The notes beneath the pieces were generated by a model, which was not told the DNA's origin, made no database searches, and was given only the letters and a program-made list of their open reading frames with translations. A stretch of DNA of 64,000 bases, taken from Ureibacillus thermophilus (GTDB taxonomy: Bacteria > Bacillota > Bacilli > Bacillales_A > Planococcaceae). The DNA lies in contig NZ_CP036528.1 of NCBI RefSeq assembly GCF_004331915.1, forward strand, positions 2,179,651 through 2,243,650. The letters are read 5' to 3'. Both the position numbers and the translations under genes were made by a program. Below, piece after piece: positions 4,695 through 60,322 of this stretch. How positions within the stretch are numbered: position 1 is the stretch's first letter; every line of letters starts with the position of its first letter.

Positions 4695-4975
4695 AAAAAA
4701 GTCTTCATCCCAGTAAGGGACGAAGACGTACTATTCGCGGTACCACCCTCGTTACAGTTTCCGTAAGTTTCGGCAAAAGGAATTTGTCTATTAGCCATTA
4801 GAAACTGTCACTTTAGCCACTGTAACGTTAGTGAACGGCAGGGATTAGCTGCACTCAGGAGTAGCTTTCCGCAATTGCCGCAGTGGAGATTCTTTCAGCC
4901 CAGGGAATCTCTCTCTTTACACTCAGCAAAAACGTACTTTCTCCTTCATCGTGTTCAAATTTTATCCATTTTGAC
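4695..4975 (-). promoter_or_regulatory. T-box riboswitch (alanine) upstream of alaS
   Basis: The minus strand carries the T-box core AGGGTGGTACCGCG (4749-4736). It is followed by an intrinsic terminator, GTCTTCGTCCC ... GGGATGAAGAC then TTTTTT (4727-4695). Stem I lies further upstream. By alignment with the hisS leader in this window (GCG-A-rich-codon context), the specifier is probably GCU at 4865-4863, which matches Ala. The transcript start is inferred near 4980. Confidence 0.93.
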
Positions 4976-54063: not shown

Positions 54064-54277
54064 ACGCGACGAATCCCGAAAGTGCCGTAGTGCGTAATTA
54101 ACATTGTTTTGAACCCGCAGCTCGGCAGGTGGGTGCCCTCACTGACTCTTTAAACGTCCCCTGTATTGGCGTTCAAATGGGGCATGTTTGCCAAGCCAGG
54201 ATTTGGGCTCCCTTTTTATAGGTGTTCGGTCAAAACTGTTAATGTAGCGCATTCGCGTACACTTCAGGATTCGTTTG
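54064..54277 (-). ncRNA. ssrS: 6S RNA (bsrA/ssrS type)
   Basis: A ~210-nt transcript on the minus strand that inhibits the sigma-A RNA polymerase holoenzyme. It folds as one long rod. The closing stem is CGAATCC-GAAGTG with CACTTTC-GGGATTCG (54260-54273 with 54070-54084). Above it lie an open central bubble and a GC-rich terminal arm (GGGAGCCC, TGCCCCATTTGAACG, CAGGGGACGTTTAAAG). Its location between tcdA (yrvM) and aspS is the same as 6S-1 in B. subtilis. No reading frame of note. It has its own promoter and terminator. I assign it by structure and synteny, not by alignment. Confidence 0.85.
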
Positions 54278-57521: not shown

Positions 57522-57782
57522 AAAAAAATGCTCTCATCCCTCTCTTCAAGGGACGAAAGCATATGACTTCCGCGGTTCCACCCTAGTTGACGCAAAAAGG
57601 CGTCCACTCGTTACGGATAACGGCCGTTTCCGTTTTTCCCTACTCATTTTCAGGAAAAAGCCTCACAAGTGTTTTTCGCAAATCCCTCCGTAGGAAAGAT
57701 TTCAGCCAATGTCTTTCCCTCTCTGGACTTCAGGCAATTGCTACTCTCTTGGTCATGGGCTTTCGACAACATTTTTACATTA
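57522..57782 (-). promoter_or_regulatory. T-box riboswitch (histidine) upstream of hisS-aspS
   Basis: T-box core AGGGTGGAACCGCGG (57584-57570). The intrinsic terminator GCTTTCGTCCC ... GGGATGAGAGC then ATTTTTTTG (57560-57522) follows. Stem I lies upstream. The probable specifier is CAC at 57671-57669 within GCGAAAAACACTTG, in the same context as GCU in the alaS leader. Uncharged tRNA-His would allow read-through. Confidence 0.92.
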
Positions 57783-57902: not shown

Positions 57903-59450
57903 ATGTTTATGAAACAAACAATTTTATTTCTTTGTATGGCCCTTCTTCTAATTTGTTCTTCTGCATATCTTTCATCCTATGTTTTGGCCAACAATGGAGA
58001 AACCCGCATTGTTAATGCAGAGAAATTATATTTACGTGAAGGGCCTGGTTTATCTTATACCATCCTCGATACCCTTGAAAAAAACGAAAGATTAACAGTG
58101 TTGGATGCGGACGGGGATTGGCTTTATGTTGAAACCGATGGCAAAAAAGGATGGGTTGCCTCTTGGCTTACCCAAAAGGAACAAAAAGAAGATGTGCAAA
58201 AATATGCGATTGTACAAGTCGATTATTTAAATATTCGGCTTGAGCCCTCCCTCGATTCCCCTATCCTTGGACAACTGTTTACAGGAGATCAAGTGGCTGT
58301 TCAAAATGAGCAAAATGATTGGATTCAAATCCAGCATCAACAAATCTCCGGTTGGGTATCTTCTGATTTTGTAACCATCAACGAAACAAAAAACGATGAA
58401 ACTAATAGGGAGCAAAGTGAACCATCAGAATCTACCGAAATAAAGAATACGAATCAATTTACCATTGCTGTGGATGCTGTCATCGTTCGAAAGAAGCCGA
58501 GTTTAAAATCGAAACAGTTAGGCGTTGCCAAAAAGGGAGAACAATTTGAAGTCATCAATCGAAATCATCAATGGATTCAAATTGATTTTCACGGCAAAAA
58601 AGGATGGGTTTACAATTTTTACGGAACTTTTGGAATTTCTGAAAACAATGATGATGAAAAAGAATTAAACAAGATTACCATCATCTACAATGGGACAAAT
58701 ATCCGAAAAGAGCCTTCCACTGCATCCAATGTATTGTTAAATGCCCAAGCCGGGGAACAATTTGTACGAATCGGCACAGAGGGAGATTGGTTTAAAATTC
58801 AACTGCCTGATGAAACTGTTGGCTATGTAGCTAGTTGGGTCGTTTCAGCAAATGAAAAAACCCCTAAACAAAATGAAAAGAAAGTAGAACGCAAAAAAGG
58901 AACCTTAAATGGCGTTACCATTGTGCTTGACCCTGGACATGGCGGAAATGACCAAGGAACAGCCGGGCTCCGTAATACCATTGAAAAAGAAATCACTTTA
59001 AAAACCGCTGAACTGTTAAAAACAAAATTGCAGCAAGCGGGCGCTAATGTGATTTTAACCCGTGAATCCGACGTTTATGTGGGGCTTTATAAGAGGGTAG
59101 CATTAGCTCATCAACATGGGGCAGATGCTTTTATCAGCATTCATTATGATGCAAGTGAAGACCGCACCATCTCAGGATTTACAACCTATTATTACCATGA
59201 TTATCAACACTCTCTTGCCCAATATGTCCATGACGGAGTAGCAAATCAGCTTTCTTTACGCGACAGAGGCGTACAGAAGGGAAATTATTTGGTTTTGCGG
59301 GAGAACAAACAAAAGTCTGTTTTATTGGAATTAGGCTATTTAAGCAATCCGAGTGAGGAAAAAGTCATTAATGCGGAAAAATTCCGCGAACAAGCAACGA
59401 TGGGCATTTATGAGGGCATATTAAATTATTTTGATGATCAGCTTGAATAA
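57903..59450 (+). CDS. Secreted N-acetylmuramoyl-L-alanine amidase with four SH3b domains
   Basis: 515 aa. A signal peptide (~1-30, 'TILFLCMALLLICSSAYL') is followed by four bacterial SH3 domains of ~60-65 residues each ('LYLREGPGLSYTILDTLEKN', 'LNIRLEPSLDSPILGQLF', 'VIVRKKPSLKSKQLGVAKKG', 'TNIRKEPSTASNVLLNAQAG'). The zinc amidase_3 domain (~335-513) has 'IVLDPGHGGNDQGT', Glu in 'NTIEKEITLKTAELL', 'AFISIHYDAS' and Glu in 'SVLLELGYLSNPSE'. It cuts the glycan-peptide bond of peptidoglycan outside the cell. It resembles the YrvJ-type amidase found at this locus in Bacillus. The start is uncertain by 6 nt (ATGTTTATG) and has a weak ribosome binding site. Confidence 0.93.
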   Translation: MFMKQTILFLCMALLLICSSAYLSSYVLANNGETRIVNAEKLYLREGPGLSYTILDTLEKNERLTVLDADGDWLYVETDGKKGWVASWLTQKEQKEDVQKYAIVQVDYLNIRLEPSLDSPILGQLFTGDQVAVQNEQNDWIQIQHQQISGWVSSDFVTINETKNDETNREQSEPSESTEIKNTNQFTIAVDAVIVRKKPSLKSKQLGVAKKGEQFEVINRNHQWIQIDFHGKKGWVYNFYGTFGISENNDDEKELNKITIIYNGTNIRKEPSTASNVLLNAQAGEQFVRIGTEGDWFKIQLPDETVGYVASWVVSANEKTPKQNEKKVERKKGTLNGVTIVLDPGHGGNDQGTAGLRNTIEKEITLKTAELLKTKLQQAGANVILTRESDVYVGLYKRVALAHQHGADAFISIHYDASEDRTISGFTTYYYHDYQHSLAQYVHDGVANQLSLRDRGVQKGNYLVLRENKQKSVLLELGYLSNPSEEKVINAEKFREQATMGIYEGILNYFDDQLE

Positions 59451-59451
59451 A

Positions 59452-59816
59452 TCGAGTAGGAGGGAGCGATGAACTCCCGTCCTCTCACACCACCGTACGT
59501 ACGGTTCCGTATACGGCGGTTCAATTAAGATCATTGACGCAAGTTTTTATAACTTCCGTGAATAGCTGTTCTCTTTATGCCAGTGGTCACTCCACGCTCC
59601 AAGAGGACCCCCACGGGATTCACCGCTTCCTCCCTCAAGTGAGGTACTAAGTTTTCTGTGTTCATCATGACCCACTGAATGCCAAGGGTTATTCTCTCTT
59701 AATTATTCGGTCCTTCTTAGTAGTTCTAAACCAACTAATACGATGACCTCTGCTGACTTCTGTCTTCGGGGTTCGGGACTTACACCCTATCGTTCATGTA
59801 CATGCCGGGCGCACAC
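59452..59816 (-). mobile_element. ORF-less group II intron (class-C-like) downstream of dtd
   Basis: Read on the minus strand it opens with GTGTGCGCCCGGCATG (59816 or 59814), the GUGYG 5' consensus of group II introns. It ends with a domain V-like hairpin, GAACCGCCGTA-TACG-GAAC-CGTA-TACGGTGGT (59520-59486). A domain VI-like arm follows (GAGGACGGGAGTTCATCGCTC) and then CTCCTACTCGAT at ~59452. About 290 nt of structured RNA lies between. No reverse-transcriptase ORF is present. It begins exactly at the end of the dtd terminator T-run, the insertion style of class C introns. Boundaries are approximate and the family call is from recalled consensus. Confidence 0.75.
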
Positions 59817-59855
59817 AAAAAGTGGGCGTCTCAAACGACTTTTCAGACGCCCACT
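59817..59855 (-). terminator. Terminator of relA-dtd
   Basis: Perfect minus-strand stem AGTGGGCGTCT / AGACGCCCACT (59855-59845 with 59831-59821) followed by TTTT, which runs straight into the intron 5' end. Confidence 0.9.
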
Positions 59856-59861
59856 TTTCTA

Positions 59862-60302
59862 TTATTTTGATTCTAGAATGATTGTAACCGGTCCATCATT
59901 GACAAGGGATACTTCCATCATCGCGCCAAAAATGCCCGTTTCCACTTTCAAACCTTGTTCACGCAGCGCTTCATTGAAGGCATTCCATAACGGTTCTGCC
60001 TGTTCTGGCCGGGCAGCTTCCACAAAGCTCGGTCTTCTCCCTTTCTTTGTTTCTGCATACAACGTGAATTGGGAAACAGATAAAATATCCCCGCCATGCT
60101 CTTTGATGGAATGATTCATTTTCCCCTGTTCATCTTCCCAAATACGGATTTCCGCTACTTTCTTCGCTAAATATTGCACATCTTCCATTGTATCTGTATG
60201 GGTAATGCCCACAAGAAGCACATACCCTTTCTCAATTTGTCCTGTCACTTTTCCATCAATGGTTACTTTCGCTTCTTTGCTTCGCTGCAAAACAACTCTC
60301 AT
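59862..60302 (-). CDS. dtd: D-aminoacyl-tRNA deacylase
   Basis: 146 aa, the usual length. It frees tRNA from D-amino acids and glycine mischarged on tRNA-Ala. Start [16 protein letters not shown]. The catalytic '[19 protein letters not shown]' (SQFTL) is near residue 76-94. The Gly-cisPro-type motif is in '[20 protein letters not shown]' with N-D-GPVT. ATG 60302 has GAGGTG 8 nt upstream; the GTG at 60311 is part of it. It follows relA by 20 nt in one transcript. Confidence 0.96.
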
Positions 60303-60322
60303 TACAAACACACCTCAAAGCA

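Follow-up and report, generated by a model that had tools for sequence, protein, structure and literature searches.

A group IIC intron relic lacking the maturase gene and the domain I core behind the dtd terminator of Ureibacillus thermophilus

A segment of 364 nt between dtd and a convergent amidase-type gene of Ureibacillus thermophilus was confirmed as a genuine group II intron relic, beyond chance, since 59 matching pieces were found by DNA search in the same assembly (G000) and 28 5′ ends were fetched from it. The segment lies in the window, i.e., the whole stretch of DNA analyzed, 64,000 nucleotides in length. It probably represents a group IIC copy that became ORF-less, inserted at a terminator and lost the core of domain I (D1), the latter deletion being shared with other copies through exchange or recurrence. 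The features concerned are as follows:

59451..59814, minus strand: D1-deleted, ORF-less group IIC intron relic, 364 nt (ends from comparison with other copies; Rfam)
59756..59814, minus strand: 5′ remnant of domain I, from GTGCG to the CAGAAGT repeat (comparison with D1-bearing copies; repeat list)
59756-59762, minus strand: CAGAAGT repeat, site of the 276-nt D1-core deletion
59710..59792, minus strand: match to RF01998 (group-II-D1D4-1), crossing the deletion junction (Rfam)
59534..59668, minus strand: remnant of the start of the maturase (IEP) reading frame, IEP residues 1-45, 73% identity (from G000:C1:2239184-2239318)
59552..59553, minus strand: IEP-gene deletion junction, common to ORF-less copies (comparison of copies)
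59451..59521, minus strand: domains V and VI (RF00029), with the 3′ end CTACTCGAT (Rfam)
59817..59858, minus strand: rho-independent terminator of dtd, the insertion target (sequence; fold of the upstream 50 nt)
59862..60311, minus strand: dtd, D-aminoacyl-tRNA deacylase, the upstream gene (TIGR00256; ORF limits)
57903..59450, plus strand: convergent gene of SH3/N-acetylmuramoyl-L-alanine amidase type (ORF; amidase models below whole-protein cut-offs)

Anatomy of the element and its insertion site

Group II introns begin with GUGYG and end with AY. The window element starts with GTGCGCC at 59814 and ends with CGAT, the final AT lying at 59451; these terminal motifs agree in most copies, the exceptions being L040 (5′ GTGTG) and L039 (3′ CGAA). 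In the Rfam scan of the window, domains V and VI were matched by RF00029 at 46.1 bits (gathering threshold 40, E 6.9e-6), and RF01998 was matched at 46.1 bits (gathering threshold 35). The element therefore carries both the domain V-VI region and the ends of a group II intron. The earlier reading made from the sequence alone had described an ORF-less group II intron relic with a GUGYG-type 5′ end and domain V- and VI-like arms, and all of this was borne out; its coordinates located the element, while both ends had to be moved by 1-2 nt to 59814 and 59451 after comparison of copies. No reverse transcriptase was detected in the element beyond the remnant of IEP residues 1-45.

The domain I core, which provides the scaffold and exon recognition, is missing. 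RF02001, the model of this core, gave no match at gathering in the window and none near the element even at a cut-off of E 10; the element is thus a deletion derivative and not an intact intron. For the same reason, the description of an intron reduced to its ribozyme had to be abandoned, as 276 nt of the D1 core are deleted. Elsewhere in the window, Rfam matches on the minus strand comprised T-boxes at 4713-4958 and 57546-57765 and a 6S RNA at 54069-54273.

The upstream gene was identified as dtd by TIGR00256 (205.3 bits, cut-off 101.5; residues from 60302 down). A fold of −26.6 kcal/mol (z −6.9 relative to letter shuffles) was obtained for the 50 nt that precede the element. The proposal that the 5′ end lies at the terminator was correct as to the adjoining dtd terminator, with the adjustment that the element starts two bases beyond the T-run and not at it. 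On the other side, the stop codon of the amidase-type gene directly adjoins the 3′ end of the intron.

Passages in PMC4424553 and PMC8919778 describe class C introns as inserting directly behind terminator hairpins. The sequence-only reading, which had named such a terminator as the known target of class C introns, was right on this point. In the own genome, a hairpin precedes all 28 fetched 5′ ends, folding at −13.2 kcal/mol or lower, compared with a control in which 16% of letter shuffles reached −10 kcal/mol. Judged by eye, 27 of these 28 hairpins were terminator-like, while the one at L036 belongs to the copy in front, being its domain VI, and the L036 intron begins right after it. The introns of L033 and L050 both lie behind copies of one dispersed repeat that ends in a GGGGGCGTCT hairpin, and the stem of the dtd terminator in the window resembles this hairpin.

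The insertion at dtd took place in the window's lineage. The amidase locus was taken from 11 genomes of the genus, nine of which were readable from amidase to dtd, and none of these nine carried an intron between the two genes; no dtd gene was detected in the amidase loci of the other two (L103 and L106). BLAST of the window element against the amidase loci of the 11 relatives and against the Ureibacillus terrenus record (L063) gave no match. The spacer between amidase and dtd is the same in G020, a genome of the same genus, and in the U. terrenus record, whose amidase gene is 72% identical to that of the window; the host thus falls within the Ureibacillus group. A reading of the segment as a conserved untranslated or regulatory region of dtd, compatible with its position directly after the dtd terminator, has next to no probability and was rejected, as the segment is absent from the nine readable orthologous spacers and present at many unrelated loci. 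The sequence-only reading had named a missing domain V, a lack of full-length homologues or a conserved untranslated region as outcomes that would speak against it; what was found was a domain V match, full-length homologues and relatives without the segment between dtd and the amidase-type gene.

The intron family and its maturase

Thirty-two stretches were fetched from the own genome for comparison of copies. The family is present there as four D1-less copies, ten ORF-less copies with domain I (602-640 nt), two ultra-short copies (193-194 nt) and solitary 5′ or 3′ ends, together with RT-bearing copies, all of which were broken or interrupted in the fetched stretches. Open frames occur within or beside the intron copies at L046, L058 and L059, and we take them to resemble transposase or TnpB-type genes. 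Low-complexity tandem-repeat frames lie near or extend into intron copies at L035 (1113-1646), L057 (1376-1789) and L155 (reverse, from 1999).

The full-length introns, about 1885 bp in size, code for a reverse transcriptase/maturase of 460 aa. Ten of them, 1884-1885 bp each, were present in nine fetched loci of the related genome G018, and nine maturase frames were read there, each of 461-463 codons; a maturase-domain search placed ten sites of this genome in open IEP frames of the same length. Full-length, maturase-bearing homologues of the element, as sought by the sequence-only reading, therefore exist. In L138 (G018:C1:2656891-2660861), two full-length introns stand head-to-tail, one base apart; L036 is another tandem of this kind.

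The IEP matched TIGR04416 at 436.1 bits, its Pfam matches were RVT_1 and GIIM only, and its nearest solved structure was the GsI-IIC RT (6ar1, 554.8 bits). As the IEP is closest, among solved structures, to this enzyme, the family was assigned to group IIC, an assignment based on the nearest structure and on general models (TIGR04416, RVT_1, GIIM). Both the class C-type IEP of the full-length relatives and the insertion behind terminator hairpins fit this group.

No unbroken maturase frame was found in the own genome, where runs of 100 N may hide one. Such runs cut the copies in L036, L037, L048 and L055 (four of the 32 first-fetched loci), a fifth run being located in the flank of L060, and the maturase frame of L048 stays open until the run is reached. 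An intact IEP copy in this genome is accordingly possible. As to the suggested helper maturase encoded elsewhere, the matches in the own genome all lay in broken frames, though an intact one may be hidden by the runs of 100 N that cut four of the copies.

In comparison with the 640-nt copies, 276 nt are missing from the window copy between two CAGAAGT repeats; in comparison with full-length introns, a further stretch of about 1245 nt, belonging to the IEP gene, is gone (1885 vs. 640 nt). The junction left by the ORF deletion was identical in 29 of 38 rows, with slight variation just after it. The nine rows without it comprised six RT-bearing or ultra-short copies and three ORF-less copies with point changes at this spot; L073 (G018) and L074 (G020) carry it as well. 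Read simply, this pattern suggests a single ORF deletion that subsequently spread, a course also reported for Thermosynechococcus elongatus (PMC2882425).

The same D1-less form was observed at three further sites of the own genome, i.e., at four sites in total, one of which is shared with two sister species. All six D1-less copies at these four sites have one junction, apart from point changes. RF02001 was matched at 136.8-146.5 bits in all five D1-bearing loci scanned and was absent from all three D1-less loci scanned (L032, L033 and L034). The gathering threshold of RF00029 was reached by L032 and not by L033 or L034; L034 gave no match at all in the Rfam scan, and 11 nt of its domain V are lost. 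Another lesion of this domain, a 7-nt deletion, was present in three of 40 copies (L038, L040 and L074), located at three sites.

Two D1-less sites were informative in other species. The site of L034 is empty in G020, where the terminator is followed by six bases and then by the downstream sequence, so that L034 represents a precise insertion. The site of L032 is occupied in both G018 (L073) and G020 (L074), and this insertion was therefore shared or exchanged between species. The surroundings of L032, L073 and L074 are about 98% identical, yet the amidase proteins of these species are only about 72-74% identical, which suggests a recent transfer or exchange of the region.

Origin and sharing of the D1 deletion

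The following course of events would account for these observations. A group IIC retro-intron family would have multiplied in Ureibacillus by reverse splicing behind terminator hairpins, with the help of the maturase/reverse transcriptase that it encodes. From a single deletion removing the maturase gene, an ORF-less derivative would have arisen and spread as well, full-length copies presumably mobilizing it in trans. In the window's lineage, one of these ORF-less copies inserted behind the terminator of dtd. The 276 nt containing the D1 core, and with them the parts for scaffold and exon recognition, were lost between the CAGAAGT repeats. The window copy is most likely dead now. For the D1 deletion, which is identical at the four sites, gene conversion among near-identical copies or repeated jumping between the same repeats is the most likely route.

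A D2-D6 tree of 34 rows and 305 columns was used to examine the relationships of the copies. Grouping all D1-less copies as one clade was rejected, at a cost of 26.8 log units (p-AU 0.0196), in a tree whose support was thin (three of 23 forks starred, bootstrap not settled); an earlier 14-row tree pointed in the same direction. Copies L032 and L073 had no clear partner, and the remaining four D1-less copies each paired with a different D1-bearing copy (L031-L038, L033-L039, L034-L041 and L074-L040), two of these forks being starred.

This pairing would be expected if the reverse transcriptase, while copying the intron RNA, had jumped from the 3′ CAGAAGU (D2/D3) to the 5′ CAGAAGU (D1), passing over the D1 core, independently at several insertions. 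This is one route within the reading as a relic, possible but somewhat doubtful. The fold of the skipped interval also agrees with it. L041 has eight direct repeats of at least 7 bp, CAGAAGT among them, and the interval enclosed by CAGAAGT is mostly self-folding and the most closed of all eight, with about 15% of the pairing crossing its borders; repeated jumping is possible for this reason. A breakpoint close to the ORF end is moreover common to L055 and L056, both ultra-short, and to the 3′ fragment L053. On the other hand, five 6-bp repeats enclose intervals that fold at least as closed, and the D1-less copies at the orthologous site (L032, L073 and L074) do not group, so that conversion or replacement is needed anyway. 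Direct signs of conversion were modest, as divergence was clearly higher in the element than in its flanks only between L032 and L074 (10/357 plus seven gap columns in the element, 1/200 upstream, and 5/489 plus two gap columns downstream); between L032 and L073 the values were 9/364 for the element and 9/200 and 2/490 for the flanks.

The use of one 7-bp repeat at four sites, despite seven other repeats of at least 7 bp in L041, speaks against the favored reading of a relic with exchange or recurrent deletion. It looks like a single event followed by spread, as a mobile D1-less form would give. Such a form would be a mini group IIC intron that is still spreading, a retro-intron satellite supplied in trans with domain I RNA and maturase by full-length copies; the identical structure of its copies at four sites, all with recognizable ends and preceded by a hairpin, and the precise insertion of L034 fit this idea. 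Nevertheless, it was judged very improbable. Together with the D1 core, the parts for scaffold and exon recognition are gone, domain I being described in these roles in passages of PMC4424553, and no expansion was seen, G018 having one D1-less copy compared with 11 ORF-less and 10 full-length ones among the matches listed. Single ancestry of the D2-D6 parts was rejected (p 0.02). In addition, damage to domain V is likewise common to several sites and also affects L034. Since no movement is expected from a copy with a damaged domain V, the sharing of a lesion across sites is no proof of mobility, and the shared domain V lesion points to exchange among copies. Deletion accompanied by exchange between copies, or deletion that occurred repeatedly, is thus likelier than a mobile D1-less form.

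Related systems and distribution

The family may be likened to the group IIC intron of Oceanobacillus iheyensis. With group IIC introns such as the one encoding GsI-IIC RT it shares the terminator-hairpin target, in addition to the likeness of the IEP. The window copy differs from both of these introns in having neither the IEP gene nor the D1 core. A copy on the Bacillus smithii plasmid pDSM4216 (NZ_CP012025.1) has the same ORF-deletion junction and the same ends as the window copy and lies behind a hairpin of −13.4 kcal/mol; unlike the window copy, it has kept domain I and measures 640 nt.

The introns of Thermosynechococcus elongatus belong to another type and are not known to target terminators. 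Passages of PMC2882425 report 28 related introns in that organism, 17 of them ORF-less with one common ORF-deletion breakpoint, so that ORF-less introns stand beside ORF-bearing relatives in one genome, as they do here. The deletions described there concern the ORF (domain IV), in contrast to the loss of the D1 core in the window copy, and working helper IEPs were demonstrated there, whereas in the present host only broken IEP frames are visible. In the literature searched, no paper mentioning both group II introns and Ureibacillus was found, and a survey by titles yielded nothing on mobile introns without D1.

A strict pattern of the D1-less junction, which overlooks L033, L034 and L074 owing to their point changes, was present in two of 261 genomes of the family (twice in G000 and once in G018) and had no match in viral_contigs. 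Among the matches listed for 25 genomes of the genus, the own genome included, unbroken matches to the whole element numbered four in G000, one in G018 and one in G020. When 150 genomes sampled from the order were searched, again including the own genome and with up to four candidates scored per genome, E values of 1e-40 or lower were obtained only for G000, G018, G020 and G021. A match was found in 445 plasmid records, one of which, that of the B. smithii plasmid with its D1-retaining copy, held at least 80% of the query in one place.

Taken alone, the window copy is an ordinary relic. The four Ureibacillus-group genomes, however, show a terminator-targeted family in various states: G018 has ten open maturase frames, and there are amplified ORF-less copies as well as decayed copies with damage to domain I or V. 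The family thereby offers a natural system for trans-mobilization of class C introns and for the exchange of lesions among dispersed copies.

A divergent second type of 5′ domain I (GTGCGCCTGGCATGGG...) was also observed, joined to near-identical 3′ parts. It occurs in G018 (L125, L127, L129, L130 and L132-L134), G021 (L145-L150) and G000 (L045 and L046), and looks like the outcome of domain swapping between intron lineages.
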